Part shown: in pieces, positions 24,404 to 32,021 of the stretch
How positions within the stretch are numbered: position 1 is the stretch's first letter
Layout: each line of letters opens with the position of its first letter
Assembly (NCBI GenBank): GCA_013306675.1
Contig: JABLUY010000001.1
Span: 404,334 to 468,333, forward strand
DNA: 64,000 bases
DNA from: Thraustochytrium sp. TN22
Lineage: Eukaryota; Sar; Bigyra; Thraustochytrida; Thraustochytriidae
Direction of reading: 5' to 3'
Notes under the pieces: model-generated
What the model saw: only the letters and a program-made list of their open reading frames with translations
What the model was told of the DNA's origin: nothing
Databases searched by the model: none
Position numbers and translations under genes: made by a program

Positions 24404-26863
24404 CTACTCGTAGCGGGCGTGTCCCCCGAGGCGGGCGTTGGCATACGTGGAGAGGAGCGCGACGAGCGGTTCAATCTCCTGGCGTAGCTCGGCAGTGTGA
24501 AGAATGCCCTCGCAAAACTCCTCCACCTGCCGGCTGAGGTGGAGGTAGGAGCCGTCGTGCGCCCGCGTGGACCGCAAAATGGACTTGTACATGGCGAGAA
24601 GCTGGTCGTAGGAATGCTGCTGCAAGATGTCCGGCTCCGCGTGCGAGGCGCCGGCGCCTTGCGCGTATGCGGCAGCCCGGGCAACACCCCGTCGCCCGAG
24701 CACGATGTCGTTGAGAATCTTGCGCGCCTTGTGGTCGAGCTGCGAGCGCACCTCCTCCTCGATCTCATACAAGACGGTCTGCGGCAGGTCACGCGCGGTG
24801 CTCATGAGCGAGGACAGGTAGGCCTGCTTCACGCGGTCAAGCTTGGCGTAGATCTCGCGCATGACATTCTGCGCGTCAGAGAGAGGGTGCTGGCGCTGCG
24901 CGGCGTAATCGGAGCCCACGGGGCTCACCCCTGCGCCTTGGCGCCAGGCGACCGGCTCAGAGCGCGCCGAGAGGGGTGGGCTGCGGCCATTAGCGTATCC
25001 ATATGAGGCCGTCGCCGGCGGAGGCGGTGGAGGCGGTGACAGGGGGGGGCGCAGCACGCCGAGTGCTGGCGGCCGCCGTACCGTGAAGGGCCTGCCATCG
25101 ACCGTGGCGCTTGGCGGCGTGGCGACCGCTGGTGCTTTGGCGCGCGGGCGTTCTGGCGCCAGATTTACGGACCGGAAACCGGGAATAGGGGAGGCGGACG
25201 GCGAGAGCGCGAGGTCCTGGCCGTCTGTGGGCTCGCTCGCCGTGAGCATCGAGGCGGCCTCCCCCAGCGAGAGTTCTGAGCTGAGTGTCACGAGTTCGCC
25301 TAGCGGCGGCCGCGGCGGCCGCGGCGAGGTGGGCGGAGACGGCCCGGCCTGCGGCCGGCGACGCGTTTCGTAGCGCGAGTCCTCGGTGCCACCCGAAGCG
25401 CGACGCGAACCGAGTCGCTTGGCGAGCGGCGGCACGGCTGCGGCGCTGCTGGCATCCTCGTGCGAGTGCTTTGCGCCCGCAGCTTCCTCTCGCGAGAGCA
25501 GATCGAGCGCCCAGCCGCGCACGGTGGCCTCGCTGACATCTGGGATGGCGTTGCGCGTGTCGTCGTTCTGCAGGAGCGCGCGCTTGATGGCGTGGCTCAT
25601 CTCCTCGAGGCGGCGCTGGCGACTGCGGTCACGGTCAAGCTGGCTGTCGGCCGCGGCCGCGGCCATTCCGAGCTCGCGCAGCTTGTCGTGGTACGAGGCT
25701 CGGGCGCTGCCGAAGACCTCCTGCATGGCGCCCTGGTCGCGCGGCTGCGACAGGGCGTCATCCGGGTCAAGCGCCTGCGCGCGGATATCGTGGTTTTGCG
25801 CCACGGCCAGGTGAAGGAGCTGGGCGACCTCGACCACCACGCCGTCCAAGCTAAGCGGCACGGCGTTCTCATCGACGAGCGCGAGGAAGTTTTCGCGGCG
25901 CTCGGCAGCTTCGCCGGCGCCGGAGCCGAAGAGGTGCTTCGCCACGGCCTCCACCTCGGCCCACTTGAGGAAGACCTGCGCATCGGTGCGCGCCGAGGCG
26001 AAGGAGCGCTGGCTTGCCTGGCTCGCCGTGTCTCGGGCCCAGGTGTTGCGCACCGATCGCTGCACTATGCTATCCACGATGCCGCGCACGCGCACGAAAA
26101 AGCGCACGTCCTCGGCGTCATAATACTCCTCCAGAAAGCGCGCGAAGACCTCCACATCGATGCGGTGTCGCCTGTGCGCGTGCACACTGAGAACCATGTC
26201 CCAGGCGACCTGGTCAATAATCTGGCGCACGCCGTAGCGCTTGCTGAGGTGGTCCAAGACGAAGACCGGGAAGCTGCCGCGCAGCTCCTCGCGCTCGTAC
26301 CGGTCTGCGCCGGCACCTCCCGCGCTCATGCGGTCCTCGTACACGTCGTTGATCAGGCCCATGAGCCACTTGAGCGAGCGCTGCCGCGGCTCCAGCCGGT
26401 CGCGCAGCTCGATCAGCGAGCAGAATTTGGTGTACGAGGAGAAGTCCTCCGCGTCGTTTGACTCGCGAAAGGCACGCAGGATACGCCGCGTCTCCTGCGA
26501 CGGTCTCCCGCCGGACAGAATCGAGGACGCCGTGCCGCCGCTCGGCGCGCGGCGGGAGCGCCTGTCGCTGAGGGCGGAGTCGTCCTCCCCAAAGTCCCCG
26601 CCGAGGTCTCCGCGTTCGCGCTCCAGCTCTCGCTCCAGCTCCCGCTCCAGCTCAAGTTCCAGCTCGTGGTCCAGCCCGCGGCCTGCGAGCTGGCGGCCGC
26701 CGCGCGCGCTCGCGCCACTCGCGCCATCCTGCACCAAGGCAATATCCGCCGCGTACGAGCCGTCCTCCGATCTCACCAACGCGATGTCATTCTCCGCCAG
26801 AAACGACAGGTACTCCTCCCGCTCCGCCTCGTCCTCCACGTCGCCCAGCTCCACCACGACCAT
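24404..26863 (-). CDS. Large conserved-looking protein of unknown function
   Basis: Predicted 819 aa. The open frame continues upstream through polyAla/polyGly-coding DNA but without an ATG, so the start is MVVVELGDVEDEAE at 26863. Residues about 110-420 look like a folded helical domain (FSSYTKFCSLIELRDRLEPR, SLKWLMGLINDVYEDRM, RQIIDQVAWDMVLSVHAHR, DVEVFARFLEEYYDAEDVRF, FLKWAEVEAVAKHLFGSG). The aromatic/acidic pattern and FARFLEEYYD-type helices recall calcium-binding-like helical pairs, but no canonical EF loop is seen. Residues ~500-700 are Pro/Ser-rich and disordered, with SPPPPPP-type runs. The C-terminal ~120 residues are helical (REIYAKLDRVKQAYLSSLMS, LLAMYKSILRS). A Leu/Glu/Arg repeat (LELELERELERELERE) lies near 65-80. 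Not assigned. Confidence 0.7.
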   Translation of the reverse strand: MVVVELGDVEDEAEREEYLSFLAENDIALVRSEDGSYAADIALVQDGASGASARGGRQLAGRGLDHELELELERELERELERERGDLGGDFGEDDSALSDRRSRRAPSGGTASSILSGGRPSQETRRILRAFRESNDAEDFSSYTKFCSLIELRDRLEPRQRSLKWLMGLINDVYEDRMSAGGAGADRYEREELRGSFPVFVLDHLSKRYGVRQIIDQVAWDMVLSVHAHRRHRIDVEVFARFLEEYYDAEDVRFFVRVRGIVDSIVQRSVRNTWARDTASQASQRSFASARTDAQVFLKWAEVEAVAKHLFGSGAGEAAERRENFLALVDENAVPLSLDGVVVEVAQLLHLAVAQNHDIRAQALDPDDALSQPRDQGAMQEVFGSARASYHDKLRELGMAAAAADSQLDRDRSRQRRLEEMSHAIKRALLQNDDTRNAIPDVSEATVRGWALDLLSREEAAGAKHSHEDASSAAAVPPLAKRLGSRRASGGTEDSRYETRRRPQAGPSPPTSPRPPRPPLGELVTLSSELSLGEAASMLTASEPTDGQDLALSPSASPIPGFRSVNLAPERPRAKAPAVATPPSATVDGRPFTVRRPPALGVLRPPLSPPPPPPPATASYGYANGRSPPLSARSEPVAWRQGAGVSPVGSDYAAQRQHPLSDAQNVMREIYAKLDRVKQAYLSSLMSTARDLPQTVLYEIEEEVRSQLDHKARKILNDIVLGRRGVARAAAYAQGAGASHAEPDILQQHSYDQLLAMYKSILRSTRAHDGSYLHLSRQVEEFCEGILHTAELRQEIEPLVALLSTYANARLGGHARYE

Positions 26864-27935
26864 CTTGCGCCCTCCGAGCACCGCCGCGCTCTTCAACGAG
26901 CGACCTCTGCCACGCCCTCGGCCGCCGCCTCCGCCTCCGCCGCCGTCGCCGCCGCCGCCGCCGCCGCCGCCGCGCTGCGCTGCGCTGCGCTGCGCTGGCG
27001 GAAGTACCGCCCGCCGCGCCGCCGCCGCCGCCGCCGCCGCCCCGCCGCCGCCGCCCGCCGCCGCCGCCGCCGCCGCCCGCCGCCGCCGCCGCCGCCGCGC
27101 GCTCGGGCGCGCGCACCTGCCTCTGCGCGCCTGTGCGCGTGGTTCGGGTTCTGCTGCTGCGGCCAAGCCGCCGCCGCCGGATCAATTCGGAGGCGCGCCT
27201 CAGCTCGTGATCGCCGTCAGATCAGCTGGGAGAGGGCGCGCCGAGGCGCGAGCGGCCTGCCGCCTGCCTGCGTGCGTGTGCGGCACGGCCACGGCCCAGG
27301 CCGCTGGCTGCAGGACGGCGTGTGCGTGAACTGTGCGGCGATGCGGTGCAGGGCGGTGCTGGTGATCACAGGCGAGCACAGGCGAGAGGAGGATCTTGTC
27401 AAGACATCGTGGATCAGGAAGAACAGGAGCGCATCGAGAGGACTTGGCTTCCTCTAGCCCGAGGCTGCATTCGCAACAGCCAGGAGTGAGTTTGAGGTGG
27501 CTTGAGCTTTCAGGTAGCTCGCTCATCCCCGTGGCGGCCGCGTGTCTGGCTGCTAGAAGACTCCAAGCTTCGCGCCTTGACCATCGACTTCGAAATTCGT
27601 GGGAAAGAACCTCCCTTTCAGCCCGCGGCAGCTGCAGTCCATGGTTATAAAGAGAAAGTCTGGCCACTACTCGCTCGAGCCACCATACCTTACCATCTCC
27701 CAAAGCATTTGCGCCAAATGGAGCCTCAGGAGAAGACGCCAATTCGGCGGCAAGATATCACGGAACGGTACCGGTCCCACCACCCCATGAAACCTGTGCG
27801 CGGCTGAGGCGGCCTGGCCCAGCGAGGCGTGCTCGTACGCCTCTTTCACACCAGAGTCATACATACATGTCAGGACAGCCGTACGTATCTATCTCACTGG
27901 CATACCTGCTCAGGCCAGGGTCGCGCGGGGCCGCG

Positions 27936-28071: not shown

Positions 28072-30534
28072 ATGGCGGCGCTGGTGCAGGATGGCGGCGA
28101 GAGCGGCGGCGCGGGCGCCGTGGCGGCGCTCGTGCGGCGGGCCAGCGCCCGCGAGGGCGGCGTGGTGTGGCAGCAGTCGGTGACGAGCCGCGAGGACCTG
28201 CAGACATGCGCGCTGTGCGGCGCTGCCACCGTGCAGCCGCTGGCGGAACAGGTGGGGCGCCTGACCGGGGACGAGAGCGCGCCGTCGCGAGGCGCGCTGG
28301 AGCTGGGCACGCTGGAGGCAGGCCGGGGCGCCGAGGCGGCGGCAGAGGCGGCGTGCGCGTGCGCGTGCAGCCTGGGCTGCGGCAGCCTGTACTGCTCGGA
28401 GGCGTGCCGCGGCGAGGACTTCGAGCGTGGCGGCCACCGGTTCCTGTGCCTGGGGCTGGCCGAAGACGAGGAGCACCCGCTGTACCAGTTCCGCGTGCTG
28501 GGCTTTGCTAGTGGCTTCTTCGACGAGCTAGGCTTGGCGCAGCGGCTCCTCGGCCGCATCCTGGCCGAGGCGCTGGACGGCGCGAGCACACCGGTGCGTG
28601 ACCTGGTGGCGGGGCGCGGGGCGCCATGGGACGAGGTGGGCGACCCAGAGGACGCCGAGGCTCGCGCGGAGGTTCTCCGCGACTCCTGGGAGCTCCTGTC
28701 CACCTGCGTGCCGGCTGCGGCCGCCGCTGCCCCGGTAGACGCTGCGTTGTGGGCCCGCGTGGTTGGCTTTGCCGTGCAGCGCCGCGTCGACTTGAATCGC
28801 CTGCAGACGCCGCTGATGCGTTGCGCTGAAAGCCTCAAAGCGCTGGAGCCCGCGACGCGGGACCGCCTGGGGCGCGTCTTTGTGGACGCTCTGGAGCGCC
28901 GCGTGAAGAACTTCGACGACGACGACGACGACGAGGAGGAGGAGCAAACACACGAGGTTGGCGGCGAGGAGCACGGCGAGGCCGGCCACTCTCGGCGCCA
29001 CAGGCAAGCGCGCGCCCTGTCCGCGGCGTCTCGGTCCGAGTCGGAGCGCACGCGCCGGCGCGGGAGCTCGGCGGACCAGGTGCGCAGCCCGAACAGCGGC
29101 AGCGTTACAGGCCGCGTCGCCCGCGGCAACAGCCGGCGCAGCTCCACCAGTGAGGACGTCGGCAGCTATGGGGCGTCCGAGGATTTTGAGGGGGACGATG
29201 CCGAAGCGGACGAGGCCGAGGAACAAGAGGACGAGAATGGCGGGGATGAGGAGGACAAGAACACATCCGAGGTCGATGCGCAGCCGTTGACGCTGGAGAG
29301 TTTCTTGGCGGAGCCGCACTTGTTCTTGCCGTACCTGACCGGGTCCGCGCTCCTCCTTTTCGAGGGCGCGGGCGAGATGGGGCACAGCTGCACGCCAAGC
29401 GCCGAGATGTCGTGGACCTGCGAGGGCAGCGACGGCGTGCGCGTCGACGTTGAGATGCGCGCGGAGACCTCGCCCCCCACGGTGAGCTTTGTGGACAGGA
29501 CCCTCCCTTTCGGGGATCGGCGCGCGGAGCTGGTGGAGCGCGGCTTGGAGTGCACATGCGCGAGGTGCCTGGTCCAGGCCAAGGAGGACACGGACGGCGT
29601 CGCCTCGGACGAGCTGCGCAGGCTCCTGAGCCAGGCGCAGTCGGACGGTCTCTGCGAGGAGGGGCTCGCTGCCGCCGACCTCCTTCTGGCGCGCGATCCG
29701 CTCGACGTGGACGCTCTCGAGAGCAAGGCGCGCCTGCTGAGCTGGGCGGATCGCTGGACCGAGGCGGACCAGGTGCGCAGGGACGCGCTGGAGTGGCTCC
29801 AAGCGGCTTCCGCGAGCAAGAGCCTTACGGCGCGGGAGAAGGAGGCGGTGCGCGTGATGGAACGCAAGAAGGCGAACCACGATTTCTTCGCGTGCGCTCA
29901 GGTGGCTCAAGTCGCGACGGAGGACCTGGACGCGGCTTTTGAGCGCGTGGAGGCGCCCGCGGCCGCGGTCTCGGCGTCCGTGGCCCTCACAAGGGCCTCT
30001 GCACTGCTGGGTAGCGACATCTGGGTCTCGGCGCCGGACCGGCCGGTTGTGACGGCGGAGACTTGTGCGCGTATGATTGAGGAGGCCGAGTCGTACGCTG
30101 CGTCGCACGGCGGCTGGACCAGCTCGCGGCACTACGACGTTCCAACGACAGATCTTGAGGTGTGCGAGATGCCCTTTGTGCGCGAAGCTTTGCGCGAGGC
30201 CTTTCGCGAGCGCGTATTCCCGGCGCTCGCGGCTCAGTTCGACGTGGACCCGACCCGCATCCGACCGCTCGACGCATTCCTCGTCAAGTACGAGGCTTCC
30301 AGGCAATACTACCTCCCCGTGCACTCGGACGAGAGTCAATTTAGTATCACACTCGCGCTTAATGACCCGAGCGAGTACACCGGCGGCGGGACCTGGTTTC
30401 CGGGCTTGGGACGCTCTCTCAATGCCGGCGTGGGCGGCATGGTGAGCTTTCCTGGTGCACTGGCTCACGGTGGCCACGCCATCACGAGCGGCACGCGCTA
30501 CATCATTGCTGCCTTTCTCTACGCGAGCGAGTGA
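28072..30534 (+). CDS. SET/MYND (SMYD-like) protein fused to a 2OG-Fe(II) dioxygenase
   Basis: An 820-aa single-exon protein. Residues 45-125 hold a Cys-rich zinc cluster of MYND type (CALCGAATVQP, later CSLGCGSLYCSEAC, ending HRFLC). After a long linker with acidic and Ser/Arg-rich runs, residues ~438-495 match the core and post-SET of SMYD proteins: HSCTPSAEMSW, then VSFVDRTLPFGDRRAEL and CTCARC. Residues ~505-610 are helical like the SMYD C-terminal TPR region. The last ~170 residues are a prolyl-4-hydroxylase-like double-stranded beta helix: metal ligands His751 and Asp753 in HSDESQFS, distal His799 in FPGALAHGG and a 2-oxoglutarate-binding Arg809 in SGTRYIIAAF. Known SMYD proteins methylate proteins; known P4H-type enzymes hydroxylate side chains. 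Having both in one chain is unusual. Confidence 0.82.
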   Translation: MAALVQDGGESGGAGAVAALVRRASAREGGVVWQQSVTSREDLQTCALCGAATVQPLAEQVGRLTGDESAPSRGALELGTLEAGRGAEAAAEAACACACSLGCGSLYCSEACRGEDFERGGHRFLCLGLAEDEEHPLYQFRVLGFASGFFDELGLAQRLLGRILAEALDGASTPVRDLVAGRGAPWDEVGDPEDAEARAEVLRDSWELLSTCVPAAAAAAPVDAALWARVVGFAVQRRVDLNRLQTPLMRCAESLKALEPATRDRLGRVFVDALERRVKNFDDDDDDEEEEQTHEVGGEEHGEAGHSRRHRQARALSAASRSESERTRRRGSSADQVRSPNSGSVTGRVARGNSRRSSTSEDVGSYGASEDFEGDDAEADEAEEQEDENGGDEEDKNTSEVDAQPLTLESFLAEPHLFLPYLTGSALLLFEGAGEMGHSCTPSAEMSWTCEGSDGVRVDVEMRAETSPPTVSFVDRTLPFGDRRAELVERGLECTCARCLVQAKEDTDGVASDELRRLLSQAQSDGLCEEGLAAADLLLARDPLDVDALESKARLLSWADRWTEADQVRRDALEWLQAASASKSLTAREKEAVRVMERKKANHDFFACAQVAQVATEDLDAAFERVEAPAAAVSASVALTRASALLGSDIWVSAPDRPVVTAETCARMIEEAESYAASHGGWTSSRHYDVPTTDLEVCEMPFVREALREAFRERVFPALAAQFDVDPTRIRPLDAFLVKYEASRQYYLPVHSDESQFSITLALNDPSEYTGGGTWFPGLGRSLNAGVGGMVSFPGALAHGGHAITSGTRYIIAAFLYASE

Positions 30535-30840
30535 AGCAGATCGAACCGTGACGCACAAGCTCTTTCGGACTCCATCGCGAGCGACACGCGCAACGCCCCT
30601 TGCCGCCCTTGTTTTCTCTGCTTTTTCTTTTCTTTGCCGTGCAGCGTTATGATTCGTGACGCAAGCTTTGTCAGGTCTGAAGATCGATCTTCTCTGGAAA
30701 TGGCTTTCTCGTTTTCGCGGCATTGCAGTGCAAAAGCTTCTTGTTCACGTCGCCCTTCTTCTTCTCGCTCCCGCTGGTGGTTCACGTCAAGAAAGACACA
30801 CATGCATGTTTATTGTCATCATCGTCATGGGTGAGCGGAG
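30535..30840. other. Convergent intergenic region
   Basis: 306 bp, noticeably lower GC than the flanking coding DNA, with pyrimidine-rich and TTTTC runs. Nothing recognised. Confidence 0.5.
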
Positions 30841-31857
30841 CTAGCTGGAGTAAGGGCGGTCGCCTTCGCCAAAGGTGTGAATTTGGCAGAGGGAGACGAC
30901 GTCCTTGATGGCATCGCCCTGCACACTCTTGAGAAGTTGCGTGCCGCGAAAGGTCGCGTCCGTGTCGAGATAGCCCGCGCGCTTCTTGATGATGGGTCGG
31001 ACACGACCGCCGCGTACCGCGCAGAAGCGCTCGGGCTTCTGGCCGACGGTCATGTGGCGGTTGGACATGTCCTTGCAATGGAGCTGCATGCGACGCGATG
31101 TCATGTCGAGACGGTGGTTGTGCGTGCGATCGTGGTGCAGGCGAAGGTCGTGGAGCTTCTCGCGAAGTTTGGTGAGCTCAAAGTCCTGGCGGTCGGCGAG
31201 CTTGCGGCGCAGCAGGTCGCAGCGCTGCTGGATCTGCGCCTCGTGGCGTGCAACCTCGCGCGGGCGCCGCTGCGCAATGACGCGGCTGAGCGCCTTGGCG
31301 TCCTCGAATTGGTCAAAGTTGCAAAGGTGCTTCTCGCTATGCATGAGGTCAAGCAGGCCCTTGGAGTAGCGAACGCGCGGGCGATGCATGTTCTCAATGT
31401 AGGAGTCAAGGTTGGCCCGCTGGATGGCGTGCGCGTGCCGCAGATCAGCGAGGCGCTTCTCGCTGAGCGCCTCGAGGTCCTCGGTGGCGGCGATATGCTG
31501 CGTCTGTAGGTCGCTGCGGAAGCGCCGCTTGGCCTGCTCCAGCTTGCGGCGCTCGCGCGCCTGGTCCTTGTTCTGGTCGTCCAGCTGGATCGTCAGGAAC
31601 TCCTCCTGGATATTGCGCAGGCGGTCGCGCACCTTGGCGGCCGCGTCATAGTCTCGCGCCGCCTCGCACTCCTGCTTGGCGGCACGTAGCTCTTCCTCCA
31701 CGGCGGCCGTCAGCAACACCAGGTCGCGTGTATCGATACGGTCGCCCTCATCCACGCCGAAGAGCCCGAAGGCCTCCTTGAGGCTGCGCACATTAATGAG
31801 CTTGCGCCGGTCTAGCCGCCGCTCGTTCGGGTTGTCGGCCAGCACGTGCTCGCCCAT
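30841..31857 (-). CDS. Charged coiled-coil protein with a UVR-like motif
   Basis: Predicted 338 aa from MGEHVLADNPNERRLDRR. The frame continues upstream only into a GCTC repeat. Residues ~20-50 are a compact N-terminal element (RRKLINVRSLKEAFGLFGVD). ECEAARDYDAAAKVRDRL at about 68-85 fits the UVR helical-hairpin pattern. Residues ~90-270 are a long Arg/Gln/Leu-rich coiled coil with conserved-looking HRPRVRYSKGLLDLMHSEKH. The tail RPYSS ends the protein. This composition suggests a structural or cytoskeletal protein, perhaps ciliary. That is inference; no named family is claimed. Confidence 0.75.
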   Translation of the reverse strand: MGEHVLADNPNERRLDRRKLINVRSLKEAFGLFGVDEGDRIDTRDLVLLTAAVEEELRAAKQECEAARDYDAAAKVRDRLRNIQEEFLTIQLDDQNKDQARERRKLEQAKRRFRSDLQTQHIAATEDLEALSEKRLADLRHAHAIQRANLDSYIENMHRPRVRYSKGLLDLMHSEKHLCNFDQFEDAKALSRVIAQRRPREVARHEAQIQQRCDLLRRKLADRQDFELTKLREKLHDLRLHHDRTHNHRLDMTSRRMQLHCKDMSNRHMTVGQKPERFCAVRGGRVRPIIKKRAGYLDTDATFRGTQLLKSVQGDAIKDVVSLCQIHTFGEGDRPYSS

Positions 31858-31892
31858 CTCCTTTTCTTCCCGCTGCGCAGGGCCGAGGAGAA

Positions 31893-32021
31893 GCGAGCGA
31901 GCGAGCGATCGAGCGAGCGATCGAGCGAGCGAGCGATCGAGCACAAGAGTTCGCTAGCTCGCGCACGAGTTCGCTGGCGCACGAGCGCACGAGCGCACAA
32001 ACGCGCGAGCGCGCGAGCGAG
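31893..32021. repeat. GCGA/GAGC tetranucleotide repeat, degenerate to the right
   Basis: Dense GCGA/GATC units at 31893-31943, then GCAC/GAGC variants. It begins 36 bp upstream of the neighbouring minus-strand start codon and is therefore promoter- or 5'UTR-proximal. Confidence 0.85.

Follow-up and report, generated by a model that had tools for sequence, protein, structure and literature searches.

The question raised by this locus is whether a single polypeptide of Thraustochytrium sp. TN22 joins a SET/MYND methyltransferase to a 2OG-Fe(II) dioxygenase, in such a way that a writer and an oxygenase could act in a coupled or opposing manner on a shared substrate, as had been proposed in an earlier note on this DNA. 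The window, meaning the whole stretch of DNA that was analyzed, comprises 64,000 nucleotides of contig JABLUY010000001.1 (positions 404,334 to 468,333). The features of the gene are the following, in coordinates of the window.

28072..30534, + strand: single-exon-looking gene of 820 aa (open reading frame, codon log-likelihood ratio, Kozak-like GCCATGG at the ATG)
28072..28206, + strand: place where an N-SET would lie, residues 1-45 (similarity to the SMYD-like protein L025 at the level of shuffles)
28207..28449, + strand: MYND-type zinc cluster, residues 46-126 (eight ligands, similarity to L025/L038)
28912..29286, + strand: acidic / Ser-Arg low-complexity insert, residues 281-405, ahead of the C-SET (composition)
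29356..29589, + strand: SMYD-type C-SET and post-SET, residues 429-506 (profile score against shuffles, alignments)
29590..30015, + strand: linker, residues 507-648, resembling TPR on inspection only
30037..30525, + strand: PLOD/lysyl-hydroxylase-type 2OG-Fe(II) domain, residues 656-818 (match to LH3, HDHR residues)

The reading frame and its surroundings

The frame opens at the ATG at 28072, placed within a Kozak-like GCCATGG, and closes with a stop at 30534, which gives a protein of 820 aa. From stop to stop it extends over 848 codons; a model of independent bases at 70% GC gives such a stop-free run a probability of 7e-8. Codon usage was scored with a model derived from 4705 codons, taken from eight further frames of this genome. 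In the gene's own frame the log-likelihood was above zero in all 14 steps of 180 bp from 28072, and it was negative in the five flanking 180-bp steps looked at around the gene. With steps of 90 bp, 26 of 28 were positive across the gene, the score being +19.0 at residues 601-630, around zero at residues 631-660 and -0.9 at the low-complexity residues 301-330. No donor-like site was found between 29600 and 29950 with GTRAGN, the sole pattern tried, and this pattern appears three times in the ORF, at 29150, 29482 and 30442. The coding-type score along the frame and the lack of GTRAGN in 29600-29950 make it unlikely, judging from the sequence, that two genes are read through or that an intron lies at the module junction. 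The uninterrupted frame described in the earlier note was therefore confirmed, with its 820 codons open and coding-type in usage, and between residues 600 and 630, where a stop or an intron would have spoken for two separate transcripts, neither a stop nor a GTRAGN site was detected. As far as the DNA shows, the modules do follow one another in the proposed order within a single coding frame.

An antisense ORF (28528-30723, 731 aa) was rejected as a high-GC shadow, given that in each of the 14 steps the sense frame had the higher codon score; in the register of the antisense ORF the score was positive in 6 of 14 steps. Two further ORFs lie at the sides of the gene, both on the minus strand. 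The ORF at 24404-27166 shows GCC/CCG-rich trinucleotide stretches at positions 27000-27110 of the window, inside its start, and the part of it that was scanned (24407-26962) gave no Pfam match at E 0.01. The same negative result was obtained for the converging ORF downstream of the gene (30841-31944, 367 aa).

The MYND finger and the SMYD-like module

The ligand set of the MYND-type cluster is complete (C46, C49, C97 or C99, C103, C108, C112, H122 and C126), with a long insert separating the second and third ligands. The region matches a protein encoded on C114 of the same genome (L025/L038) with a tblastn E of 0.00165 genome-wide, and its local score against L025 was reached by none of 500 shuffles; the Pfam zf-MYND model matched it with an E of only 1.1. 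These data support the MYND-type cluster that had been read by eye. For a position between N-SET and I-SET the support is confined to the finger, both flanks being non-significant against L025: in residues 1-45 the similarity was no better than shuffles (174 of 500 reached the same score), and for the I-SET 242 of 500 reached the score. The GAG at residues 13-15 could be a remnant of the GxG SAM loop, which is undetectable as such.

L025 itself (166-1827, C114) is a second divergent SMYD-like protein of this genome, with an N-SET-like GERGLFA, a MYND-like cluster and an insert that is acidic and contains poly-His. In this protein NHST replaces NHSC and the CxCxxC post-SET is absent, and the Tyr is kept (DYVRF). 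An acidic insert ahead of the C-SET is thus found in both proteins.

The assignment of residues 429-506 to the SMYD type was approached through relatives from the same genome. In a phmmer search limited to the fetched ORFs, residues 429-520 matched the protein L021 with an E of 1.9e-6, and L021 is SMYD-like, finding SMYD2 at 4e-13 in a PDB search. When a SMYD profile was built from L021, L005 and human SMYD2, leaving out the gene's own protein, it scored 29.3 bits against this protein, compared to 9.9 bits for the highest-scoring of 20,000 shuffled versions of residues 401-560 and 5.3 bits for the next best of the 426 window ORFs. When the whole protein was shuffled 20,000 times, the spaced pair HSCTPS and CTCARC never appeared, and the pair was unique to this ORF among the 426 window ORFs of at least 80 aa. 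Residues 399-640 alone found SMYD3 in the PDB at E=0.48, behind chance matches at 0.025-0.058, so the SMYD assignment rests on L021 and L005 as stepping stones. There is no proof of a folded SET domain, since, in addition to this direct match, the N-SET and I-SET are non-significant and the C-SET is only weakly similar to L025 (39 of 500 shuffles reached the score). Pfam SET did not match the protein either. Of the SMYD-like region with HSC and CTCARC described before, the spaced motif pair and the profile score stand, but a complete SET domain does not. The cysteines C440, C494, C496 and C499 are kept, and we take them to correspond to the zinc site of the post-SET in SMYD proteins.

The active-site strand could be aligned without a gap between the gene (VSFVDRTLPFGDRRAEL), L021 (VSYVDTSLPRADRRAQL) and SMYD2 (TSYIDLLYPTEDRNDRL), and from this alignment the place of the SMYD catalytic Tyr is occupied by Phe473 (29488-29490). 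The corresponding substitutions, Y239F in Smyd3 and Y240F in Smyd2, are reported in PMC1524980 to leave no methyltransferase activity, and PMC3136521 also gives SMYD3 Y239F as inactive. Other positions have changed as well: NHSC became GHSC at residues 437-440 (G437, with His438 kept), the PGEEL loop aligns with ETSPP, and the aromatic pair of RYAFRC aligns with ER-GLEC, which is one residue shorter. For SMYD3, PMC3136521 describes the post-SET Y257 as essential and F259 as contacting the cofactor analogue; the aromatics lost here appear to fall in the same columns in our own alignment. Such an apparent loss of chemistry in a module that keeps its structure is typical of pseudoenzymes, of which MLL5 is a studied case among SET proteins (PMC5094779). 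The methyltransferase "writer" of the earlier note is consequently not upheld, considering the Phe for Tyr, the GHSC, the loss of the GEEL loop and the post-SET aromatics, and the undetectable N-SET. That note had also held that loss of Fe- or SAM-binding residues would count against its reading; the Fe/2OG set is kept, but the SMYD catalytic residues are replaced, so that this objection applies in part, to the SMYD side.

Regarding the linker, a TPR reading was considered and set aside as unproven: Pfam TPR gave no match, and the similarity to the TPR part of L002, another protein of this genome, was reached by 143 of 1000 shuffles. The similarity of the linker to the C-terminal parts of L021 and L005 was reached by 699 and 872 of 1000 shuffles, respectively.

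The oxygenase domain and the occurrence of the fusion

Residues 658-816 matched LH3 in the PDB with an E of 2.2e-9. A 2OG profile built from the gene's domain together with L002, L003 and L040 found LH3 at 5e-27, the lysyl hydroxylase 6ax6 at 3.6e-24, a P4H at 2.8e-6 and PiuC at 0.011. Up to an E of 0.1 this search gave 14 distinct PDB sequences, none of them named PHD2. By analogy, H751, D753 and H799 are presumably the Fe ligands and R809 the 2OG Arg. These four residues, and also Y740, are invariant in the 25 aligned rows, 24 of which come from viral contigs or bacteria and were picked out of 92 loci; the constancy of R809 is partly built in, as this Arg sits in one of the fetching patterns, and the patterns were without HxD and the distal His. 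The paralogues L002 and L003 share the same H, D, H and R. The oxygenase half thus looks apparently active in its sequence. The HSD (H751-S-D753), distal His (H799) and Arg (R809) of the earlier description were all found, but the fold type given there needs correction, the domain being closer to PLOD than to P4H.

Pfam, NCBIfam and PHROGs were run on the whole protein and on its pieces, and nothing exceeded a Pfam cut-off, the 2OG domain staying below it at E=0.017; in NCBIfam the only models to appear were those of PRK05467 (Fe2+-dependent dioxygenase), well under the cut-off (domain E=0.00023), and PHROGs gave the 2OG family phrog_61 at 1.9e-13. The domain search for SET, MYND and 2OG that had been suggested thus returned MYND and 2OG below the Pfam threshold and was silent on SET. 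In a crude hydropathy scan no signal-like or membrane stretch was seen in the protein.

In a tree of 28 rows, the gene's 2OG domain grouped with L002 and L003 with a support of 97/98, and L003, LH3 and L040 formed long branches. A viral capture of the oxygenase is not supported by this grouping with its own paralogues, an argument that is weak because of the several long branches. When viral contigs were searched with the N-terminal 640 residues, 16 pattern matches yielded no confirmed relative, and the 79 pattern matches to the SMYD C-SET alignment yielded none either.

The two paralogues, L002 (1276-3297, minus strand, C446) and L003 (1438-2322, plus strand, C419), are PLOD-like in their 2OG domains. 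L002 carries TPR repeats ahead of this domain, with Pfam TPR above the cut-off and 2OG below, and in L003 Pfam PhyH was above the cut-off and 2OG-FeII_Oxy below. Seven viral or bacterial relatives were scanned. In six of them (L041, L043, L044, L057, L115 and L118, from IMG/VR) the 2OG domain forms the C-terminal part of a glycosyltransferase protein, the seventh being the bacterial L121, and an OGFOD2-like domain was also present in five of the seven. LH3 consists of a glycosyltransferase part followed by a C-terminal 2OG domain, and the order in the viral contigs is LH3-like.

The occurrence of the fusion was investigated in the genome (37.9 Mb, 453 contigs), where Pfam 2OG-FeII_Oxy_3 marked at least 15 further places, besides the gene, L002 and L003. 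Sixteen frames were compared, namely those of 14 of these 15 places plus L002 and L003, and in none of them was a MYND or an HSC-type motif found, the MYND pattern used being a loose one that matches the gene's own finger; none scored above 1.7 bits with the SMYD profile. At the fifteenth place (L135), neither the MYND pattern nor the HSC-type motif was seen in the pieces of frame available. A split fusion could be missed in these comparisons, as the loci span about 1.5 kb per side and introns were ignored. Iyer et al. 2010 reportedly surveyed peptide-modifying dioxygenases. No protein combining SET, MYND and 2OG was described among the literature matches listed, which does not establish its absence in print. 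The statement that no protein with this order had been described therefore stands for the three-part combination within a limited literature search, but not for MYND plus 2OG, which is known from PHD2 (PMC2928329).

Proposed role and comparison with known systems

The reading that we favor, and that we consider reasonably probable, is that of one soluble protein with a MYND finger, a degenerate SMYD C-SET/post-SET, a linker and a PLOD-like oxygenase, in which the pseudo-SMYD part would guide the hydroxylase. A targeted hydroxylase is likelier than a two-activity writer because the SMYD catalytic residue is lost and the oxygenase residues are apparently intact. The pseudo-SMYD part would no longer methylate; together with the MYND finger it would form a binding platform for proteins or peptides, by which a substrate of the C-terminal domain is delivered or regulated, the finger binding ligand peptides and the SMYD groove perhaps still holding a peptide. 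With O2, 2OG and Fe(II), the C-terminal domain would then hydroxylate the side chain of a lysine (less likely a proline) in an intracellular protein. Lysine is suggested by the kinship to LH3, the substrate being guessed from PLOD similarity only, and the cytosol or nucleus by the lack of a signal-like stretch. A more specific version, which we regard as rather unlikely, is that the lysine-binding cradle of SMYD, without methyl transfer, was reused for presenting lysine peptides to the attached lysyl hydroxylase, possibly protecting or blocking lysines that the active SMYDs of this genome would methylate.

Other explanations account for part of these data. The protein could be an oxygen sensor like PHD2, in which MYND recruits partners, O2 controls the hydroxylation of a regulator by the oxygenase and the pseudo-SET serves as spacer or binding surface. 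MYND and 2OG in one chain is indeed the layout of PHD2 and FgaA (PMC2928329), but the oxygenase is PLOD-like and PHD2 was not named among the PDB matches of its profile at E up to 0.1, so we consider this unlikely. The alternative of a decaying or recently fused gene, whose modules were joined by chance and whose N-terminal half drifts towards loss with only the oxygenase functional, would fit the undetectable N-SET, the non-significant I-SET and the low-complexity insert; it is hard to reconcile with 820 open codons of coding-type usage, and with complete MYND and post-SET zinc ligands, which neutral decay would hardly have spared selectively, and we find it quite improbable.

A bifunctional enzyme, with a SET part that still methylates and an oxygenase acting on the same or on the methylated substrate, could invoke the conserved C-SET/post-SET cysteines, His438 and the presence of all parts in one chain. 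However, F473 is the equivalent of the two inactivating substitutions in SMYD3 and SMYD2, and the N of NHSC, the GEEL loop, the post-SET aromatics and a detectable N-SET are all missing, so that we hold this to be highly unlikely, and the two-activity claim is corrected in this sense. That two genes, or exons split by an intron, were joined by chance read-through is hardly credible: the dip of the codon signal at residues 631-660 and the capacity of GC-rich DNA to keep frames open could be quoted for it, but frame and codon bias are the same on both sides, and the region between the modules has neither a stop nor, in 29600-29950, a GTRAGN site.

If the guided-hydroxylase reading holds, a methyltransferase module would have lost its chemistry and kept its zinc-built frame, being now joined to a hydroxylase, which would offer a testable case of rewiring in lysine-modifying systems and, next to PHD2, another path to an oxygenase guided by a MYND finger.

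To our knowledge, none of MLL5, SET3, UpSET and SET-24 is of the SMYD/MYND type or has an oxygenase domain. What MLL5, yeast SET3 and UpSET share with this protein is a SET-derived module whose catalytic motifs, including NH and the active-site Tyr, are described as lost (PMC5094779), and SET-24 of C. elegans is presented as a catalytically inactive SET protein (PMC12886896). With SMYD2 and SMYD3 the protein has in common the MYND ahead of the C-SET and the HSC plus CxCxxC motifs, whereas it differs in the active-site and N-SET changes described above, in the acidic insert and in the C-terminally fused 2OG domain. With PLOD/LH3 and the viral and bacterial PLOD-like proteins it shares the 2OG domain with HxD...H...R, LH3 being its best solved relative, but it is without the glycosyltransferase part found in six of the seven viral or bacterial relatives scanned and shows no signal-like stretch, having a SMYD-like N-terminus in their place.

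In PHD2 we know of no SET remnant, and the oxygenase here belongs to another subfamily, the PLOD-like one. The common trait with PHD2/EGLN1 and Drosophila FgaA is a MYND finger with a 2OG domain in one chain, a prolyl-hydroxylase domain in their case (PMC2928329). According to the same source it is disputed whether the finger raises or lowers the activity of PHD2, and zf-MYND is listed together with the HIF prolyl hydroxylase profile in PMC3475032.
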